NCBI GenBank assembly: GCA_009835515.1
Contig: VXXH01000192.1
Span: forward strand, 1-17,169
Source of the DNA: Candidatus Poribacteria bacterium
Lineage (GTDB): Bacteria > Poribacteria > WGA-4E > WGA-3G
DNA length: 17,169 nt
Reading direction: 5' to 3'
The notes under the pieces are model-generated. The model was not told the origin of the DNA. It saw only the letters and a list, made by a program, of their open reading frames with translations, and made no database searches. Shown here piece by piece: positions 2 through 17,169 of this stretch (the stretch's first letter is position 1; each line of letters begins with the position of its first letter). The position numbers were made by a program, and so were the translations under genes.

Positions 2-199
2 TACTATGCACAATTAACAGAACAAAGAGCAAGAATTAGACAACAAATTAACACTACCAAAGTTCTGATTGATCAAACTTTAGTTGAAAGTAAGTTGAGA
101 GTCTATGAATTCCTTGAAAGATATTATTCAACGTTGTCATCAACGGCACGAGAAACCGCTCAGGCAGCGAAAGACAGTTGTAAGACCTGTAATCTATAA
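2..199 (+). CDS. Possible C-terminal end of an upstream gene (partial)
   Basis: From the window edge a frame stays open for 65 codons and stops with TAA at 197-199. The peptide is rich in Q, E, R and hydrophobic residues in a helical, coiled-coil-like pattern (it includes LTEQRARIRQQ and KLRVYEFLERYY), which looks more like real protein than a shadow frame. It has no ATG near its start, so it would be the tail of a gene beginning left of the window. It overlaps the next gene by 95 nt, which is long for a natural overlap; either this frame or the exact start of the next gene may be wrong. No family is recognised. Confidence 0.35.
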   Translation, partial: YYAQLTEQRARIRQQINTTKVLIDQTLVESKLRVYEFLERYYSTLSSTARETAQAAKDSCKTCNL

Positions 200-3100
200 G
201 GGGCTTCTTTACCACTTCACGGTCTATTGCGCCCACAGAAATCCTGTAAGACTTCATGACCTGGAGAAGGCGGATATCTCCTTTATGCCGATAGGGGGTG
301 CGCCCGAGTATGATCAAGTCCCACGCGCTTTCGATGGTGAACGCTTCTTGAGACGGCAAGGCGTAGAAGACTGGGAGCCCAAATACTGGCACACATCGTG
401 GGGAATTCGGGTGTATACCGGTATCCCCTCCGAACGAGATGGTGCGCAATGGCACGATGTAGAATTTAAGTATGAAGCAATCTGCGCCGCACCCGATGTA
501 GTCCTTGCTTGTATTGAGACGCTTGTCAAAGCTGTAGGGAACCCGTTGCTAACGTTGACAAAGTCTGGCGGGTTGCGATTCTCTTGCAGAGTTCCACACT
601 ATCTCCATCCAAATACCGAAGCAACGGCACCGTATATCTACAAACATATCCCCACGCCGGAAAATCCTCATCAACGGGACCTATATCTTGAAATCCTTGG
701 CGAGGAGCGGCACAGTCCGTGGAACGCGCGTTATGAGATCCTGCTTGGGGATCTGCTAAATCCGCCTATCATTGCGAAAGAGATCCTCTTTTCATCTATT
801 GACGCGCTCAGGGAAACACTTCACGACCCTGAACCGCTTGGCGCGGAAAAATTAAAATCCAGTCCGAAAGTCTTTATCACTTCGCCTTCATCCCTCGGTT
901 CGCATAAATTGGATCTCGCAAAAGAGGCATTCTTGAAGCGCAGGTTCGCTTATCTCCGACAAGAGGACGATTTTCATCACTGGACTCAGAACGCAAGTAG
1001 TGATGACACCGATGTATTGTTATGGGAGCGCGACGGCACTGTGTGGATACGGGCATCTGCCTCTTCTGATGTTGGGCTACCCACCGAAGCCACACCTATC
1101 ACAGATATCTGGGACGATACCGGTATTCTGCCACCGGTTCCCGCGACGGGGCTGCCTGCGTCCAAGCACGTGCCTGCGGTGCGGGAAGGCAAACTCAGTC
1201 CCTTGGCGATAAAGCGTCCACCGCCAGTGATGCAGAAGATAGAAGATCACAAGAAGGTTTATGAACCCCTCGAAAAGAATATTGCGCAGATAGAAAGTAT
1301 CTTTGACAGCGATGCAGAAGTGATTGGACTAACTGCCGAGATAGGAGCACGGAACAACTATCAAGTGGAGTCACATCTTCTCAGAAGGGGTGATGTCAAC
1401 TTCAACGGCGAATTCCCATTAGTGGAAGAAGCCGTCCAACAATTTGAAAGGCAAAACTTATCATCACTCGTCCGCCGGAGAAATTACGGGTTCCTATGGG
1501 ATCGGGTGAAAGAGATACCCGTTGCGGAACGCATGGCGAACCCTTTTCAACACGGTAATGTCTGTGAAGATGCAGATCGATGCCTCGCACTTGTGAAAAA
1601 GGGTGGGAATCCGAGTGAAAGCATCTGTCCAAAATGTCCCGTCTATACGGAATGTCAGGCGCGCGGTTATCTATCGCAACCGATCACACTACAACGTGCT
1701 AAGGCGCAAATATTCGGGTTCTCACAAGTGCTTTTGGATCCCAACTACGCAACATTGGTGGAACAAATTCTTCAACCCATCGGTGACACCGAACGCCTTT
1801 GTATCATTGATGAAGCGGAAACGACCGAAATGTTTCTCGGATGCGGCATCTCCAAGGACAGATTAGAGGCCTGGAGTACAAACTGGCACGGGAGGGCGTT
1901 AGGGAACTTTGCGCAAGCCTTACTAAACGCATTAGAAATTGAAAGCGAACCGGATGATATTGTCGTCAGACGGCTCCGCATAGTGATGCAAGCGTTTCAA
2001 CAACACGAAGCGGAAATCGTTGAACAGATGCGCCACGTCAATGTAAGAGGCAAGGTCATCGCACAACGGACTGTTGATGACGAGACTAAAGCGGAATTGG
2101 CACGTTTTGCGATTGCGTTTGAAGGTGGTGTTTCAGCACACATCCCTCTCAATGCTGCTGCTGCAGATAGGCTTACAACGAAAGGGCTACCGATTTTCCA
2201 ACTCGACTCCTTTGTCCTTGATGAAGACACAAGAATACCGATGTCAATTGCACAAGCAATTCGATTGGGTGTTTTGGATGCGGGGACCCTCGAGAAGATT
2301 CATGAACTCCCGACTGTCTATCAGAATCCAGACTGGACGTTCTGGCATCAACTCAAGCGATTCTTCACACACTATACCCGGGATGCCGATGCGCCGATGA
2401 CCTGGTATGACGGGCATGACAAAGCCTTGCAATTCTGGGTGCCGTCGGTGCTGCATCCGAGCGTCAAACGGCTGTTGTTAATGTCAGCAACAAACTCTGA
2501 GTCAGATTTCCGCAGAATGTTCCCAGATAAGAAAATCGAAGCAATTCGCATCAAACCGAACCCTTGGGTCGCGGGGAACCAAATTTTTCAAATTCGGTCA
2601 GGTGCCCACACACTGAAGACAATGTTAGATTACGACAGCAACTGGGATGTTATTGGACTATCTAAAGCCGGAGAACGCTTTTTACTGGGTATCTGCGCTG
2701 AAATTGAGAGAGATCCGAACGTTAAGCACGCGATTATTACCTATGCCCCCATTATCGAACAGCTGAAAGATTTCGCAGAAAAAGAGAACGTCTGTTTGCT
2801 GACGGAATTCAAAGATTTGCAAAATTTGGAGACCGATTTTGAAGCGGCAGCGGTTGTTTGGATCATCGGCACTCCCCACTGGGAACCCGGTACTATATGG
2901 CGGCGGGCGCAACTCCTGTTCGGAAACGATGAAGACCCCCTCTGCTATGAGGCAGAAACAGAGTTCCAACACTATAAAGATGAACGCGTTCAGAGAATTT
3001 ACACACAGACCGTCGCAGGCTTAATCACAGAGATTGTAGGGCGCGCCGGGTTGAACCGTTGGCGTGATAAAAAAGTTATCTTGATAAGTAGCCTCGAAAT

Positions 3101-3521
3101 CCCTGACATCACCGATAGACCTGAGACACTCCTTTTTGACTGGGAGGATTTTGAGGTCGCCAACGGACTCGACAAACTCACTGAGACGATCACCACACGC
3201 CAGCGTTTTGAGACTGAACGCGATCAACTCACCGAGGAATCTCCGAGAGTGGAAGTCGAGCGGATCCTCGGTTGCTCCCCACGGCAGGCAAACCGTGTGT
3301 TGCAAAAGCTTAGAGGTGGCATGCCACGTGTAACCTTCCGCGAGCAAATTCTGTCTCTTCTTGCTGACGGCGAGAAAAAATCAGCTGAAATGATTACGGC
3401 TATTGACGGAAACCCTGCAGCGATACACCATGAACTCTCAAGGCTTACCAAAACCGGTGAAATTGTAAAAGTCCGCCGGGGTGCCTACGTCCTCCCAAAA
3501 GTATCTCCATCCAAACAGTAG
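105..3521 (+). CDS. Large primase-like/degenerate superfamily 2 helicase-like protein
   Basis: This 1138-residue protein is not assigned to a named family; the domain reading is mine. Residues about 80-250 resemble an archaeo-eukaryotic primase fold: an acidic strand with D118 and E120, a helix, then a strand with KSGGLRF at 153-159, where such primases usually have a SGxGxH-like motif (here R replaces H). Residues about 405-420 sit where a Walker A loop would be, but read AEIGARNN (411-418), without GK[ST]. A cysteine cluster follows (C487, C493, C508, C511, C517), like the Fe-S or zinc insert of XPD/DinG helicases. Then come CIIDEAE (D569-E572, Walker B), MSAT (793-796, motif III-like) and VGRAGLNRW (about 978-986, possibly motif VI). 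The last 65 residues look like a winged helix. An in-frame TGA at 96-98 lies just upstream, so ATG 105 is the earliest start; no strong Shine-Dalgarno is present. The gene is surely coding; activity is uncertain. Confidence 0.85.
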   Translation: MNSLKDIIQRCHQRHEKPLRQRKTVVRPVIYKGLLYHFTVYCAHRNPVRLHDLEKADISFMPIGGAPEYDQVPRAFDGERFLRRQGVEDWEPKYWHTSWGIRVYTGIPSERDGAQWHDVEFKYEAICAAPDVVLACIETLVKAVGNPLLTLTKSGGLRFSCRVPHYLHPNTEATAPYIYKHIPTPENPHQRDLYLEILGEERHSPWNARYEILLGDLLNPPIIAKEILFSSIDALRETLHDPEPLGAEKLKSSPKVFITSPSSLGSHKLDLAKEAFLKRRFAYLRQEDDFHHWTQNASSDDTDVLLWERDGTVWIRASASSDVGLPTEATPITDIWDDTGILPPVPATGLPASKHVPAVREGKLSPLAIKRPPPVMQKIEDHKKVYEPLEKNIAQIESIFDSDAEVIGLTAEIGARNNYQVESHLLRRGDVNFNGEFPLVEEAVQQFERQNLSSLVRRRNYGFLWDRVKEIPVAERMANPFQHGNVCEDADRCLALVKKGGNPSESICPKCPVYTECQARGYLSQPITLQRAKAQIFGFSQVLLDPNYATLVEQILQPIGDTERLCIIDEAETTEMFLGCGISKDRLEAWSTNWHGRALGNFAQALLNALEIESEPDDIVVRRLRIVMQAFQQHEAEIVEQMRHVNVRGKVIAQRTVDDETKAELARFAIAFEGGVSAHIPLNAAAADRLTTKGLPIFQLDSFVLDEDTRIPMSIAQAIRLGVLDAGTLEKIHELPTVYQNPDWTFWHQLKRFFTHYTRDADAPMTWYDGHDKALQFWVPSVLHPSVKRLLLMSATNSESDFRRMFPDKKIEAIRIKPNPWVAGNQIFQIRSGAHTLKTMLDYDSNWDVIGLSKAGERFLLGICAEIERDPNVKHAIITYAPIIEQLKDFAEKENVCLLTEFKDLQNLETDFEAAAVVWIIGTPHWEPGTIWRRAQLLFGNDEDPLCYEAETEFQHYKDERVQRIYTQTVAGLITEIVGRAGLNRWRDKKVILISSLEIPDITDRPETLLFDWEDFEVANGLDKLTETITTRQRFETERDQLTEESPRVEVERILGCSPRQANRVLQKLRGGMPRVTFREQILSLLADGEKKSAEMITAIDGNPAAIHHELSRLTKTGEIVKVRRGAYVLPKVSPSKQ

Positions 3522-4040: not shown

Positions 4041-4370
4041 ATGAAAGACAAACTACCCGATTTTCTTCAAGATGTCATTGAAGAATACCCGGAAGTCTGG
4101 AAAGCGTATCAGGCATTGGGTGAAGCGTGCGGCACTGCCGGTCCAATTGAACCCAAAACCGTGAGGTTTGTCAAACTCGCATTGGCGATCGGTGCCAAGT
4201 CTGAAGGTGCGGTGCATTCGCATACGCGGCGTGCGCTCCGGGAAGGGATCACACCAGAAGAATTGCAACAAGTGGCTCTGCTCGCGGTGACATCTATCGG
4301 CTGGTCGTCAAGTATGGCGGCACTGTCTTGGATTCAGGACGTGGTGAACAAACAACCGCAGTCTGATTGA
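4041..4370 (+). CDS. Carboxymuconolactone decarboxylase-family protein without redox cysteines
   Basis: A 109-residue all-helical protein of the CMD/AhpD superfamily. The family signature is present as SEGAVHSHTRRALREGIT (residues 54-71), followed by PEELQQVALLAVTSIGW. AhpD-like members carry CxxC just ahead of the conserved histidine; here those positions are S54 and A57, while H61 remains. It is therefore unlikely to be a peroxidase-type thiol enzyme and resembles the cysteine-free CMD subgroup, whose function is not established. It starts 11 nt after tatA and its stop lies just before the TPR gene start, so it is probably co-transcribed with them. Family assignment is firm; biochemical role is unknown. 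Confidence 0.88.
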   Translation: MKDKLPDFLQDVIEEYPEVWKAYQALGEACGTAGPIEPKTVRFVKLALAIGAKSEGAVHSHTRRALREGITPEELQQVALLAVTSIGWSSSMAALSWIQDVVNKQPQSD

Positions 4371-4381
4371 GGAAAGTCAGC

Positions 4382-5656
4382 ATGGACGCAGGTCGTAAAC
4401 GCCATCAGATGTTTGCAAAACGTGTCTGTGGGGTTTTAATTCTCACGGTGCTTTTATCACTTATCCCGTCTGTGAGTAGAACTGAAACGACTTCGGTATT
4501 CCAAGAGGGCGTGGAATACGTCAAATTACGACTCTACCCACAGGCAGTCGATACTTTTAAGTCTATTTTATCACAGCAACCGACACATGTAAACGCGCTT
4601 TTCCAACTCGCGAACGTCTATAAATTGCAAGATGAACTGGAATTAGCGATTGAGACGTTTAACAAGATTTTTACAATAGCCGCAGACCTAAAAAATGTTC
4701 CGACCCCTACCAAGGAACGGATTCACGGATTAACACACCTTGCGCTGGCAGAAATCTACTGCAAACAGAGCAAATTAGACATCGCAGAACAGCACGCGAA
4801 AGAAGCCGCCGAGAGGCGTCCGACAGACGCCGATACACATTACCGACTCGGTTATATCTACACACATCAGGCGAAACTCGACGCAGCACTCGCCGCATTC
4901 AAGCGTACCCTCACACGTAACCCCGATTTTCCAGAAGTTTATGAATGGCTCGGCTTAATTGCCCTCATGCGGAACGAACCGCAGCAAGCCGTGGCACACT
5001 ATCAGACCGCAATCGAGAAAAAACCTTACGTTCAGAGTGCCTACTATAACCTCGCCAAGGCGTACCGACTGCTCGGCGATACGTCAGCAGCAACGGAACA
5101 ACTCAAACTCTTCCACCAGATGAAAGCCTACTACGACCAGACGTACGCCATCGAAGGGACACTGGCAGAAGAGCCAATGAACACGACCCTCCGGTTGGAA
5201 TTAGCAGAAATCCATCTGAAACACAAGCATATTTCCGCAGCGGTTGCGACCTACCAAGCCCTGATTCGCTTGCACCCAGACGCTACAGTCGGATACGATA
5301 AGTTGGGACGGCTTTACATGAATCTCAATATGTCCCAGCGTGCGATTCCATTCTTCCTGAAAGTCCTTGAACTAAACCCAGACGTTGTAGAACCACACCT
5401 CCGATTGGGGTGGCTCTATACCAAATCAAAGGTGTTTGATAAAGCAGAAGCGCACCTGCAAACGGCTATAAAGAAGATGCCACAATTGAGCTTAGCATAT
5501 CACGGGTTAGCTGAAATTTACACGCAGCAAGGACAAATTCAAAAGGCGATTGATGTCTATCAACATATCACAACAATTGAACCTGACGATGACGACGCTC
5601 GGAAAGCTTTACACAACTTGGAACGTCTGAAACAGTCGTCGCAAACAACGCGATAA
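4382..5656 (+). CDS. Exported tetratricopeptide-repeat protein
   Basis: A 424-residue protein with an N-terminal basic stretch and hydrophobic segment (about residues 12-30), read as a signal peptide or membrane anchor. From about residue 37 to the end it is made of tandem TPR units, roughly nine or ten; clear examples include DADTHYRLGYIYTHQAKLDA, PEVYEWLGLIAL and LSLAYHGLAEIYTQQGQIQK. TPR arrays are protein-binding scaffolds; the partner is not visible here. ATG 4382 is chosen because GAGG at 4369-4372 lies 9 nt upstream. A TTG at 4367, overlapping the stop of the previous gene, would add five residues and is less likely. It is followed after 10 nt by the ASPIC/UnbV protein, a frequent neighbour of TPR genes in such genomes, suggesting the two act together outside the cytoplasm. 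Confidence 0.9.
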   Translation: MDAGRKRHQMFAKRVCGVLILTVLLSLIPSVSRTETTSVFQEGVEYVKLRLYPQAVDTFKSILSQQPTHVNALFQLANVYKLQDELELAIETFNKIFTIAADLKNVPTPTKERIHGLTHLALAEIYCKQSKLDIAEQHAKEAAERRPTDADTHYRLGYIYTHQAKLDAALAAFKRTLTRNPDFPEVYEWLGLIALMRNEPQQAVAHYQTAIEKKPYVQSAYYNLAKAYRLLGDTSAATEQLKLFHQMKAYYDQTYAIEGTLAEEPMNTTLRLELAEIHLKHKHISAAVATYQALIRLHPDATVGYDKLGRLYMNLNMSQRAIPFFLKVLELNPDVVEPHLRLGWLYTKSKVFDKAEAHLQTAIKKMPQLSLAYHGLAEIYTQQGQIQKAIDVYQHITTIEPDDDDARKALHNLERLKQSSQTTR

Positions 5657-5666
5657 ACCTATCCTT

Positions 5667-7403
5667 ATGCCAAAAAACGTCCATAACAATAATTTCTATC
5701 GTTTTTTCGGATTCATACTTATAGTGACGGTTATAAGTCCTCTATACGACACAGCCGTATTCGCAGATCCAATTTTCATTGATGTTACAGAAACCGCCGG
5801 GTTAAACTTTGAGCATACCGATGGTAGGAGCGGTTTAAGACTTTTCAATGAATTCCTCGGATCCGGTGGCGGGTTTTTCGACTATGACGGTGATGGCGAC
5901 CTTGACATCTACCTCGTCAACGGTGCAATTCAGACAGACGACGCAGAAAACAAAACACCGCATAACGTCCTCTACCGAAACAACGGGGATAACACCTTTA
6001 CGGATGTCACAGAAGCAGCAGGGGTCGGCAGTACGATCTACGGCACCGGTGCGACTGTCGGCGATTATGACAATGACGGAGATTTGGATCTTTACGTCAC
6101 TAACTTCGGCGCAGATCAACTCTATCAAAACAACGGCGATGGCACTTTTACAGATATAACGACACACGCCCAAGTCGGTAATCCAAACTGGGGCACCAGC
6201 TGCGCCTTTGCTGATGTTGATAACGACGGACATTTAGACTTGTATATAGCAAACTACGCCGAATATACACCAGAGAACGATGTCCGCTGCGAAGAACGGG
6301 GTGTCCATGTCTATTGCGGACCGCACGCATATCCTGCGGTTCATGACACTTTTTATAAGAATAACGGGGACGGCACATTCACCGACGCATCAACCTTATA
6401 CCGTCCTGCAGACCTGATCCCGCAGCACGGGTTAGGCGTAACCTTTGGTGATTACGATGCCGATGGGAACATTGATCTCTATGTCGCCAACGACCAAGAC
6501 CCAAACTTTCTATTTCAAAACACCGGTACCGGTAATTTTTTAGAGGTTGCATTAATCTCAGGTGTATGCTATAATGATATGGGGAAAGAAGAGGCCGGTA
6601 TGGGGACTGATTTCGGGGACTACGACAACGACGGGAAACTCGACCTTACCGTCAGCAATTACCAGACAGAAACCAATACCGTTTATCGTAATCACGATAG
6701 CTCCTTTTTTACCGACAATACCATTACCTCAGGTATAGCGGAGGTAACACACGGCTATCTCGGATGGGGCATTCGATTTTTCGATTATGACAACGATGGA
6801 CACCAAGACATTTTTGTCGCGAATGGACACCTGATGGATAACATCAATGTTCTTGAGAAACATGTAACCTATCCGCAAAAGAATCTGTTATTTAGAAATT
6901 TAGGCGACGGAACGTTCGCCAATGTTACGTCTGCTGAAGCACGCCATCACGATGATCCTGATCGCGTGAGTTCAGTGGAAACCGACGGTCTATCACTGAA
7001 AAAAGTCAGTCGTGGCACCGCTATCGGTGACTACGACAACGATGGGGACTTGGATATCCTTGTCACCAATTGTAACCAACGTCCAGACCTGCTTCAAAAC
7101 GCAGTCGGCAATCAAAACAATTGGATACAAGTCCAAGTTGTCGGACAAAAAAACAACCGTTCTGGAATTGGTGCAAGAATTAAAGTTGTAACCGGAACAC
7201 ACATCCAATATCGGGAAGTGCAAAGTGGTGGGAGCTATCTCTCCTTCCACGATCTGCGTGCCCATTTTGGCGTTGGCAAAGCGGAACAGATTGATCGCCT
7301 TGAAATTCGCTGGACCAACGGACACATTGACCGAGGAACATCTCTCCCTGTCAACCGAAGGTTTAAGGCAGTTGAAGGCGGAGAAATTGTTCCGATAGAT
7401 TAG
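5667..7403 (+). CDS. CRTAC1-type FG-GAP/VCBS repeat protein with ASPIC/UnbV domain
   Basis: A 578-residue exported protein. Residues about 12-34 are a hydrophobic signal peptide ending near AVFAD. Seven calcium-binding DxDxDGxxD loops follow, from DYDGDGDLD at residue 72 to DYDNDGDLD at residue 455, each followed by a strand such as LYVTN or IFVAN. This is the pattern of an FG-GAP/VCBS beta-propeller. The C-terminus (about 480-570; NWIQVQVVG, GIGARIKV, SGGSYLSFHD, HFGVGKAEQID, IRWTNG) is a clear ASPIC/UnbV domain. Such proteins are thought to act in surface or matrix binding; no enzymatic role is implied. No clear Shine-Dalgarno precedes ATG 5667, but the 10-nt gap to the TPR gene suggests translational coupling. 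Length and domain order match CRTAC1-like bacterial proteins. Confidence 0.92.
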   Translation: MPKNVHNNNFYRFFGFILIVTVISPLYDTAVFADPIFIDVTETAGLNFEHTDGRSGLRLFNEFLGSGGGFFDYDGDGDLDIYLVNGAIQTDDAENKTPHNVLYRNNGDNTFTDVTEAAGVGSTIYGTGATVGDYDNDGDLDLYVTNFGADQLYQNNGDGTFTDITTHAQVGNPNWGTSCAFADVDNDGHLDLYIANYAEYTPENDVRCEERGVHVYCGPHAYPAVHDTFYKNNGDGTFTDASTLYRPADLIPQHGLGVTFGDYDADGNIDLYVANDQDPNFLFQNTGTGNFLEVALISGVCYNDMGKEEAGMGTDFGDYDNDGKLDLTVSNYQTETNTVYRNHDSSFFTDNTITSGIAEVTHGYLGWGIRFFDYDNDGHQDIFVANGHLMDNINVLEKHVTYPQKNLLFRNLGDGTFANVTSAEARHHDDPDRVSSVETDGLSLKKVSRGTAIGDYDNDGDLDILVTNCNQRPDLLQNAVGNQNNWIQVQVVGQKNNRSGIGARIKVVTGTHIQYREVQSGGSYLSFHDLRAHFGVGKAEQIDRLEIRWTNGHIDRGTSLPVNRRFKAVEGGEIVPID

Positions 7404-7459
7404 CCGATACAAATAATGCACAGGAGGCTAACGGTTTCCTATGCTACATGGAGGAAAAA

Positions 7460-8233
7460 ATGAGGAACCTATTTATCATACTAACCCTTATCACGTTTGC
7501 GGCATCTTTTGCCTACGGCGCAAACGAACCAGAGGATTCACTCATCCTCTACTTCTCTTTTGATGAACTCGACGGTAAAAACACCATCGATCATTCAAAA
7601 TATGGGAACGATGGTGAAATGGTGGGCAATCCGAAGCATGTTGAGGGCAAATTCGGCAAGGCTCTGGAACTCAACGGCGAAAGCGACTGGGTTGTAGTCC
7701 CACACGATGATATCCTCACTGTTGACAACAGTGTAACTGTCATGGCTTGGATTAATACCGAACGCCATCAGGGACCCGGTGGACAGCGGTGGCAAGGTAT
7801 TGTTGCGAAAAGCAACAACCCGCGCTCCTACAGTTTCTACACCGAATTCCCAAGTGAATGTTTGCACCTCTCTGTCGGTGGCGGAAGTGTTTGTAACAAA
7901 AAGGTGCCGTTAGAGGAATGGGTGCATGTCGTCGCACAGGTAGATGACGGCTCAACACATCGGTATTGGGTAAACGGCGAAATGGCGGGCGAATTCGGTG
8001 GTAAAAACGCGCCTCCCGGTAAAGCTGATACAGCCGATGTCCTTGTCGGTAGAACACACGAAGGTCAACGCGAATTCCTCGGTCTCATCGACGAAGTCCG
8101 CATCTGGAACCGGGCACTTGACGAAGATGAAGTCATCGAACAGATGGAGAGCGGCTATTTTGAGCTTTTCGCTGTTGATCCACGTCAGAAACTCGCAACA
8201 ACCTGGGGACATCTGAAGAAACCCTCACGATAA
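7460..8233 (+). CDS. Exported LamG-domain protein, first tandem copy
   Basis: A 257-residue protein with a clean signal peptide (MRNLFIILTLITFAASFAYGA) and a single LamG/concanavalin-like jelly-roll domain over nearly the whole remainder. Hallmarks are SLILYFSFDELDG, GNDGEMVG, GKFGKALELNG, VTVMAWI, HRYWVNGE and the closing GLIDEVRIWNRALDEDE. LamG domains bind carbohydrate or protein ligands outside the cell; no catalytic motif is seen. Two cysteines, in PSECLHL and GGSVCNK, could form a disulfide. The start is ATG 7460, because GGAGG at 7450-7454 lies 5 nt upstream; the in-frame ATG at 7448 would contain that ribosome-binding site inside the gene. The protein ends in KLATTWGHLK, shared with the next gene. 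It sits 56 nt after the ASPIC/UnbV gene and may be in the same operon. Confidence 0.92.
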   Translation: MRNLFIILTLITFAASFAYGANEPEDSLILYFSFDELDGKNTIDHSKYGNDGEMVGNPKHVEGKFGKALELNGESDWVVVPHDDILTVDNSVTVMAWINTERHQGPGGQRWQGIVAKSNNPRSYSFYTEFPSECLHLSVGGGSVCNKKVPLEEWVHVVAQVDDGSTHRYWVNGEMAGEFGGKNAPPGKADTADVLVGRTHEGQREFLGLIDEVRIWNRALDEDEVIEQMESGYFELFAVDPRQKLATTWGHLKKPSR

Positions 8234-8243
8234 AACCCGCCCG

Positions 8244-8300
8244 TATGCGCGCTCCTGACGCTTGTGGATGTTCAAGTCCCACAAAGTTCAAGCGCGCATA
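8244..8300. repeat. Palindromic element between the two LamG genes
   Basis: TATGCGCGCT (8244-8253) is perfectly inverted as AGCGCGCATA (8291-8300). Inside it, TTGTGG (8262-8267) pairs with CCACAA (8279-8284), and TGA/TCA adds pairing between, so the whole 57 bp can fold as one long interrupted hairpin. It may be a REP-like repeat, an RNA-processing signal or a partial terminator between the paralogues; no T-run follows. Confidence 0.7.
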
Positions 8301-8328
8301 TACCTGTTTAGAAACTAAAGGAGAACAA

Positions 8329-9087
8329 ATGAAGACTTTCTTTTTTCTCTTGACAATTATAATGATCGCGGTACCCTTTGCGCATGCCGCTGATCCGTCC
8401 GATGATTCACTCATCCTCTACTTCTCTTTTGATGAAATTGATGGTGATATGGTCACCGATCACTCCCAATACGGGAACGACGGAACTATTGCTGGCGCGC
8501 CGGAGTTAGTCGCAGGAAAATTCGGGAACGCACTCAAACTCAACGGTGAAAGCGACTGGATCGAAGTCCCGCACGCCGATATTCTCACCGTCGATACAAG
8601 CGTAACAGTCATGGCATGGATTAACGCTGGAAGACACATGGGGCCCAACGAACAACGGTGGCAAGGGATTCTCTCAAAAGGCAACAGTCCGCGCTCTTAT
8701 AGCTTCTACACTGAATCCCCAAGTGAGTGTTTGCACCTCAGCGCCGGTGGTGGAAGTGTTTGCACCGGAAAAATCGCGCTGAATGAGTGGCAGCACGTCG
8801 CAGCACAAGTGGATGATGGCACACATCGGTATTGGTTAAACGGCGAAAATGTCGGCGAATTCGGCGGGAAAGGTGCCTTGCCGGGCGCTGCCGATACGTC
8901 TTCTGTCTTTGTCGGTAAAACCCCTGAAAACAACCGTGAATTCCTTGGACTCCTTGATGAAGTCCGCATCTGGAACCGCGCCCTGAATGAGGAAGAAATC
9001 CAAGCAGAAATGAATTCAGCAGCAACGCCTGTTGAACCGCTTGGGAAGTTGTCCACAACGTGGGCGACACTCAAATCCAAAAGGTAA
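8329..9087 (+). CDS. Exported LamG-domain protein, second tandem copy
   Basis: A 252-residue paralogue of the preceding protein, roughly two-thirds identical by eye and colinear over the whole length. It has a signal peptide (MKTFFFLLTIIMIAVPFAHAA), one LamG domain (SLILYFSFDEIDG, GNDGTIAG, GKFGNALKLNG, VTVMAWI, HRYWLNGE, GLLDEVRIWNRALNEEE) and a final KLSTTWATLK tail. The two cysteines are conserved with the first copy. The start is ATG 8329, since AAGGAG at 8317-8322 lies 6 nt upstream and the signal peptide begins there; the open frame back to 8245 runs through the palindrome and is not coding. Stretches of identical DNA shared with the first copy point to a fairly recent duplication or gene conversion. 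Role: probable extracellular or surface ligand binding, ligand unknown. Confidence 0.92.
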   Translation: MKTFFFLLTIIMIAVPFAHAADPSDDSLILYFSFDEIDGDMVTDHSQYGNDGTIAGAPELVAGKFGNALKLNGESDWIEVPHADILTVDTSVTVMAWINAGRHMGPNEQRWQGILSKGNSPRSYSFYTESPSECLHLSAGGGSVCTGKIALNEWQHVAAQVDDGTHRYWLNGENVGEFGGKGALPGAADTSSVFVGKTPENNREFLGLLDEVRIWNRALNEEEIQAEMNSAATPVEPLGKLSTTWATLKSKR

Positions 9088-16160: not shown

Positions 16161-16661
16161 ATGAAAAAACACCTAACACACTTCGACGAAAAAGGCAATA
16201 CGCGAATGGTGGATGTCGGTGGCAAGGAAGAAACACTGCGCATCGCCATCGCCCGCGGGCATATCACTGCCCGTCCTGAAACACTCCGACGCATTGCTGA
16301 ACAGAAAATGAAGAAAGGCGATGTTTTAGAGGTGGCACGCCTTGCGGGTATCATGGCGGCGAAGCGTACCGGCGAGTTAATCCCACTATGTCATCCACTC
16401 GCCCTGACTTCAATCCGCGTCGAACTCGCAATTGCAGATGATGATAGACCCCGAATAGAAATCGAAGCAGAAATCCAAACGATTGGCCGCACAGGCGTAG
16501 AGATGGAAGCACTCACCGCTGTGTCAATCGCAGCTCTCACCGTCTACGATATGTGTAAAGCGGTAGATAGGGAGATGGTCATCGCCGATGTCAGGCTCGT
16601 GAAAAAAACAGGCGGAAAAAGTGGTGATTTCATATCCGACCCCGAGACGCAGCTACCTTAG
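16161..16661 (+). CDS. moaC: Cyclic pyranopterin monophosphate synthase MoaC
   Basis: A 166-residue MoaC, which converts the MoaA product (a cyclic dihydro-GTP) to cyclic pyranopterin monophosphate in molybdenum cofactor synthesis. Diagnostic segments are [18 protein letters not shown] (16-33), [30 protein letters not shown] (51-80; K68, C77, H78) and [22 protein letters not shown] (112-133; D130 equals the catalytic Asp of E. coli MoaC), ending in KTGGKSGDF. Length is normal. No Shine-Dalgarno precedes ATG 16161; the start is fixed by family alignment, with residues 5-15 matching the usual [14 protein letters not shown]. Other moa/moe genes are absent here, so the pathway is dispersed. Confidence 0.95.
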
Positions 16662-16674
16662 AGAGGACCTACTG

Positions 16675-17169
16675 ATGAAGCAGAAAACGCACCAAACATT
16701 CATTGTAATTCTCACGGTTGTTCTAATTTCCACAACAGCGTTTGCAGCAGATCATGTATTGATTATCGGCGGTGCTGCCGGTGAGAAATCCTTTTACGAC
16801 GCATTCTGGAACGCTACTTCTCGGTTCCACCAACTGCTCACCGACGATTATGGCTATACACCCGAACAAATCACTTTTCTTTTTGAGGATATGGACGCGT
16901 CTGGAGAATCAGAGATCGTTGATACCGAATCAAAACGTGAACACGTCTTAGCAGCGTTCGCCGAACTCGCTGAAACTGTCCAACCTTCAGATCAATTTCT
17001 GATCTTCATGCTTGGACACGCCTCTCGTACCGGTAGAGGAGACCTGAAGTTTAATCTCCGCGGACGGGATATTACTGAAGCAGAATACGTAACGCTCATT
17101 AACAGCATCCCTGCCGAACGTCAGATTTTAATCTTCGGTTTCCCTTACAGCGGTAAACTTGTTCGCCAA
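16675..17169 (+). CDS. Exported clan-CD (caspase/legumain-like) protease-like protein, partial
   Basis: The first 165 residues of a gene cut by the right edge of the window. ATG 16675 follows AGAGGA (16662-16667) by 7 nt and lies 13 nt after moaC. Residues 1-25 form a signal peptide ending AFAAD. The rest resembles a caspase/C13-like alpha-beta fold: VLIIGGAAGE, then DQFLIFMLGHAS, with H115 at the catalytic His position, and ILIFGFPYSGKL (151-162). Relatives usually have DSCYSG there; here P157 stands where the catalytic Cys would be, so this copy may be catalytically dead. The remaining C-terminal domains are outside the window. The fold assignment is by motif only. Confidence 0.75.
   Translation, partial: MKQKTHQTFIVILTVVLISTTAFAADHVLIIGGAAGEKSFYDAFWNATSRFHQLLTDDYGYTPEQITFLFEDMDASGESEIVDTESKREHVLAAFAELAETVQPSDQFLIFMLGHASRTGRGDLKFNLRGRDITEAEYVTLINSIPAERQILIFGFPYSGKLVRQ

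Follow-up and report, generated by a model that had tools for sequence, protein, structure and literature searches.

A multi-copy primase-helicase-like protein family of Poribacteria with eroded catalytic motifs

The window analysed here is an entire contig of 17,169 nucleotides (VXXH01000192.1, our C297) from the incomplete genome of a Candidatus Poribacteria bacterium (4.85 Mb in 881 contigs, 78.6% complete). Close to its start, an open reading frame (ORF) at positions 105 to 3521 of the forward strand encodes a chain of 1138 residues, which a preliminary description had read as a primase-like N-terminus joined to a helicase-like body without its Walker A loop. In an alignment with 27 chosen homologues, identity is 63-78% along the ORF; since homologues align along its length, the ORF is a real gene. 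The same description mentioned an upstream gene whose tail overlaps this one. An open frame running from base 2 does extend beyond the gene start, and the contig begins there.

Architecture of the window protein

The features placed on the gene are as follows.

105..3521, + strand, whole gene for the 1138-residue primase-helicase-like protein of a Poribacteria family (ORF and homologue alignment)
216..830, + strand, archaeo-eukaryotic-primase-like (prim-pol) fold, residues 38-242
456..470, + strand, motif I region D118-V-E120-F-K122, with Lys in place of the second carboxylate (Glu in distant relatives)
576..578, + strand, R158 in SGGLRF, at the motif II position and conserved as Arg in every row examined
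1263..3185, + strand, XPD/DinG-like superfamily-2 helicase body, residues 387-1027
1344..1358, + strand, GARNN, residues 414-418, lost Walker A site
1563..1655, + strand, putative iron-sulfur (Fe-S) module; C487, C508, C511 and C517 invariant, C493 variable
1809..1820, + strand, DEAE, residues 569-572, Walker B position
2484..2492, + strand, SAT, residues 794-796, helicase motif III
3018..3059, + strand, degenerate motif VI, residues 972-985; EIVGRAG, against QAIGRAR in distant relatives
3195..3320, + strand, segment GCSxRQAN, residues 1031-1072, named helix-turn-helix (HTH)-like by eye; 69.8% mean pairwise identity, three helices in the model
3321..3506, + strand, winged helix, AbiEi/ArsR-like, residues 1073-1134

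The computed architecture thus comprises a prim-pol-like fold, an XPD/DinG-like helicase with a four-cysteine module, and an HTH-like and winged-helix tail. The three parts foreseen in the preliminary description, a primase-like N-terminus, a helicase-like body and a C-terminal winged helix, were all supported computationally. The first shows the fold of the archaeo-eukaryotic primase (AEP) superfamily, and the second has, as in XPD/DinG, two RecA lobes into which Fe-S and arch modules are inserted. The motifs named earlier (D118/E120, SGGLRF with R158, AEIGARNN at residues 411-418, DEAE and SAT) are likewise all present.

Curated libraries recognise mainly the tail of the window protein, as Pfam AbiEi_4 (E 2.2e-4, below the cut-off) and as an ArsR-like HTH. 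Matches in Pfam, NCBIfam and PHROGs are weak and mostly run through the tail, with nothing firm in PHROGs, and a sequence search of the PDB returned a tail match only (E 0.79). No profile of the known defence systems in PADLOC-DB 2.0.0 matches across the protein; the AbiEi winged-helix tail alone matches. AbiEi domains beyond this short winged helix were not found, the PADLOC AbiEi models (198-280 positions) matching only within positions 15-62, and no search was aimed at an AbiEii partner. Judged by the Pfam, NCBIfam and PHROGs scans and by limited literature searches, the family appears undescribed.

Motor and copying motifs

The loss of Walker A proved true and lies at its own place, as GARNN is aligned with GAGKT in a paralogue on another contig of the same genome (C477, 60% identical). 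Both the GK[ST] of Walker A and the QxxGR of motif VI, which belong to XPD/DinG helicases, are missing from the window protein. The loss does not extend throughout the relatives, a point that the preliminary description had wished to see checked: among the 112 family rows of the tree, GxGK[ST] is found in 18 and GxGK[STN] in 22. The window's own clade of 19 rows (100*) has the P-loop in none and the enclosing clade of 27 (99*) has it in seven; parsimony requires seven changes for GK[ST] and six for GK[STN], of which starred branches force six and five, respectively. Nor can Walker B be called a retained feature of the family, since DE at 569-570 occurs in only 41 of 179 relatives, although the window protein itself keeps DEAE.

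At the N-terminus, HHalign matched the first 262 residues of 110 family rows to the N-termini of 18 distant relatives with 100% probability and 35% identity. The alignment is free of gaps from F121 to P130, and the D-x-E of the distant relatives, recognised by pattern in 15 of 16 GGLRF rows (the sixteenth reads DIE), falls at positions 120 and 122. Position 122 in the family is Lys, Thr, Ser, Asn or Pro in 110/110 rows and never acidic; position 120 is acidic in 75/110. In this register, the window protein departs from the metal-ligand pattern of AEP motif I (hhhDhD/E) in its second acid. Hence D118 and E120 are present as described, but the motif pair is 120/122, and its glutamate has been lost at 122 family-wide, to Lys here. 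In one report, changing both motif I acids abolished the activity of PolpTN2 (PMC5862659).

The absence of the usual primase histidine had also been offered as a sign of inactivity. Position 158 is Arg in 111/111 family rows and in 6/6 outgroup rows, which makes it the normal residue of this domain. Moreover, the same report gives the motif II residue as family-specific among AEP families, which carry Arg, Lys, Gln or Tyr there; the DR0530-like family has Arg/Lys (PMC5862659). We have therefore set the histidine argument aside.

All members of the described five-cysteine cluster are in place, but four rather than five are invariant. C487, C508, C511 and C517 occur in 103/103 tree members that hold the module and in 179/179 family proteins, and C493 is kept in 87/103. 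The four agree in sequence with the Fe-S cysteines of XPD/DinG; metal binding is putative, and the module is probably of the 4Fe-4S type. At four loci (L083, L085, L053 and L077), members of 976-995 residues without the module co-occur with a longer member, about 3 kb apart in L083 and adjacent in the other three.

Such strictly conserved cysteines, along with the ArsR-like tail, would suit a transcription regulator that senses redox state or a ligand through the Fe-S module, with the winged helix on promoters and the rest as a sensor scaffold. Promoter-like sequences were also noted by eye upstream of several copies, where a scan at one locus gave 2 against 1.0 expected. However, the whole module is missing in 9/112 family rows, and such a role leaves the retention of the prim-pol fold and the helicase lobes unexplained; we regard it as unlikely.

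Copies, constraint and surroundings

A phmmer search matched 1278 proteins; two of the 120 listed matches carry an organism name, both Candidatus Poribacteria, and the loci recovered for the family are all Poribacteria records. Of the 84 genomes of the phylum, 51 are matched by a profile for the distant group, namely 33/38 in the window's genus, 16/18 in a sister genus and 0/2 in a third genus of the taxonomic family, with two weak matches among the remaining 26. Copies are numerous, with at least nine family genes in one genome assembled as a single contig (G010) and at least five in another (G005). The window's genome has eight loci (C297, C477, C704, C75, C610, C337, C136 and C32), the last being of the distant type. 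Several contigs begin some 45-120 bases upstream of a family gene (C297, C477, C75 and C610 in the window's genome, G000; C620 and C649 in G049). A shared repeat was rejected as the cause, as the first 110 bases of the window match only themselves in the genome and the upstream sequences differ.

With several copies per genome and relatives that resemble replication proteins of mobile elements, each gene might serve the replication of a self-copying replicon that is still mobile. Against this, many loci are syntenic and common to several species, the neighbouring genes are ordinary, the catalytic motifs are lost, and neither the family nor P0153 matched a plasmid, phage or viral contig. This makes a living replicon decidedly improbable.

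The relatives are under purifying selection, and the ATP-binding lobe is the least conserved part. The whole-gene ratio of nonsynonymous to synonymous substitution rates (dN/dS) is 0.12-0.29 in 21 syntenic locus pairs, which were picked by hand, include the window gene in none, and come in 13 cases from two orthologue groups. Neighbouring genes mostly lie below the family gene in dN/dS, with four at 0.22-0.26, and where a locus is common to two species, most neighbours surpass the family protein in conservation in most pairs, though not in all. Mean pairwise identity rises from 39% in the ATP-binding lobe through 51.5% (RecA2), 53% (linker), 57.5% (arch), 62% (winged helix), 65% (prim-pol fold), 69.5% (Fe-S) and 69.8% (HTH) to 80% in segment 1001-1030. 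In line with the nucleic-acid-binding role proposed in the preliminary description, the putative nucleic-acid-binding modules are better conserved than the ATP-binding lobe. Per-domain dN/dS is uneven: one group shows relaxation over a 21-codon P-loop stretch (0.91), a second has a different, constrained sequence in its place (0.07), and in a third the entire ATP-binding lobe is constrained as strongly as the rest.

The motif losses, together with copies that are short or carry stop codons, could be read as pseudogenes, i.e., decaying remnants of integrated elements. The dN/dS range, open frames of more than 1090 residues in 92/112 tree members, and the invariance of the cysteines, D118 and R158 all speak against decay, which we hold to be very improbable.

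A single family gene stands at 15 of 20 mapped loci. Among the loci common to different species, several lie on records titled chromosome. Two genomes have tandem trios in the same order (L021:1485-11408 and L030:1517-11417), each comprising a form of 786-788 residues that lacks most of the helicase, one that reads GAGKN or GAAKY and one that reads GAGKS, and the two clusters have downstream genes in common. Such mixed clusters, and the P-loop copy C477 in the window's genome, would be expected if copies without a P-loop were regulatory subunits of a hetero-complex in which only some subunits hydrolyse ATP. Yet most mapped loci hold one member, the window genome's P-loop copy lies on another contig, and XPD and DinG are taken to be monomeric. 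A hetero-complex is thus rather unlikely.

A conserved partner gene found no support. No Pfam family occurs in more than 3 of 63 neighbour proteins (E 1e-5), a set that omits 3 of 66 (two family fragments, at L031 and L036, and one protein beside L090) and whose members are not all independent because some loci are orthologous; the neighbours are ordinary and unshared. Upstream neighbours are on the opposite strand in 20 of 32 cases, usually some hundreds of bases away. In L032, L035, L037, L038, L039, L043 and L048, the sequences preceding the family genes share an AACC-GA-GGTT-like element, as judged by eye; it is possibly an operator or leader, or reflects mere common descent of orthologous loci.

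The downstream side of the window shares 82.6% DNA identity with L016 over 1.5 kb. By eye, it encodes a TPR-like protein (4367-5656), followed by an FG-GAP/ASPIC-type repeat protein (5667-7403) and a tandem pair of similar LamG-type proteins with signal-like N-termini (7448-8233 and 8245-9087), likely a local duplication. A caspase- or C13-peptidase-like protein (16621-17169), also named by eye, is truncated at the contig end. Scanning the window against Rfam and for tRNAs gave zero matches.

Proposed role and known relatives

In distant relatives, the same helicase sits behind either the GGLRF domain or a BT4734-like AEP domain with PriCT-2. Over parts of its first 405 residues, P0157, which is of the latter type, has matches to primases of phages and to plasmid proteins from the BT4734/BF3469 and CyRepA1 families, and its close relatives include metagenome-assembled genomes named Acidimicrobiaceae, Flavobacteriales and Poribacteria. 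The helicase of the BT4734-type protein has matches above 600 bits in 4 of the 84 genomes, one next to RuvC and an HTH gene of the phage-repressor type and another near genes that by eye are transposase-like, SIR2-like and NTPase. About 3.5 kb away from a relative with GAGKN and QAVGRAR (L174:897-6078) are genes for a large NTPase and a SIR2-like protein, both named by eye, and these surroundings resemble a defence island. The GGLRF domain seems to have been shuffled between motors, as it is fused by eye to other helicase types in P0149, P0182 and P0161 (1186-1273 residues).

Taken together, the gene product is probably a primase-helicase of mobile-element descent that has been domesticated, has largely lost catalysis and acts by binding DNA. 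The computed losses comprise the glycine and lysine of the P-loop and, family-wide, the motif I glutamate. Because the motor and copying sites are eroded while the DNA-binding parts are preserved, the protein is suggested to grip DNA rather than copy it. The tail would recognise a DNA site, and single-stranded or junction DNA would be held by the Fe-S/arch and primase-fold modules; unable to hydrolyse ATP, the protein would stay bound, neither unwinding nor priming.

Several observations weigh against this view. The mobile-element origin is likely but indirect because the whole protein is found in no viral, phage or plasmid record: searches of viral contigs with queries A3, A2 and A5 retrieved no family member or relative (one weak match, at the N-terminus, came from a further search), and P0153 had zero matches among phage and plasmid records. 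The family is not uniformly dead, as both GK[ST] and DE are retained in 13/112 rows. The ancestral ATPase may already have been non-canonical, since GKN (18/23, with GKS in 4/23 and GKT in 1/23) and DD (4/6, with DE in 2/6) are common in distant relatives. In principle, D118/E120 could serve as AEP motif I, since D118 is invariant, although position 120 is acidic in only 75/110. The composition of the dN/dS sample, with the window gene in no pair, counts here as well.

For the domesticated protein, the leading candidate function is interference with, or control of, the replication of replicons that use related primase-helicases, which we put forward tentatively; a DNA-binding regulator without a replication link ranks next. 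More speculative still, and on balance doubtful, is that the diversified dead primase-helicase repertoire of Poribacteria provides dominant-negative decoys. These would sit on the origins or forks of invading replicons that depend on the related active enzyme and would keep them from being primed and unwound, which would amount to an innate immunity built from captured replication proteins. The eroded ATP-binding lobe, the strictly conserved putative DNA-gripping modules, the faster evolution than most neighbours and the sporadic less eroded relatives would fit such decoys. If true, this would be a new cellular resistance to mobile DNA. Giant pseudoenzymes that descend from replication machines and form multi-copy families are, to our knowledge, uncommon in bacteria. 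Because paralogues with and without the P-loop occur alongside domain-swapped relatives and forms devoid of the cysteine module, the family provides a natural series in which to ask what the XPD-like Fe-S channel and the prim-pol fold do after catalysis is lost.

Among known systems, pRN1 ORF904 and other plasmid or phage primase-polymerase-helicases differ in their motor, the ORF904 helicase being described as superfamily 3 (PMC8718748), whereas the one here is XPD/DinG-like; unlike them, the window family is multi-copy and without the motif I Glu and the P-loop. The BT4734-like AEP and PriCT-2 proteins (P0138, P0155 and P0157) have the same helicase type in their C-terminal part, with the P-loop Lys, an acidic Walker B, SAT and QxxGR, but a different primase domain instead of the GGLRF domain; HHalign between the two domains found no similarity with shallow profiles (probabilities 6.6% and 0.2%). 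Pseudohelicases such as yeast Utp25 are likewise helicase-like proteins whose activity is lost, although Utp25 is unrelated to the window family and reportedly takes part in yeast ribosome assembly (PMC9539457). With XPD/DinG helicases, including the DinG of type IV CRISPR, the window family has in common the two-lobe body, the four cysteines between the P-loop site and Walker B, and the fold match; relatives also match a PADLOC profile weakly. Unlike in XPD/DinG, the P-loop, motif VI and often Walker B of the window family are degenerate, and prim-pol-like and winged-helix domains are fused to the helicase.
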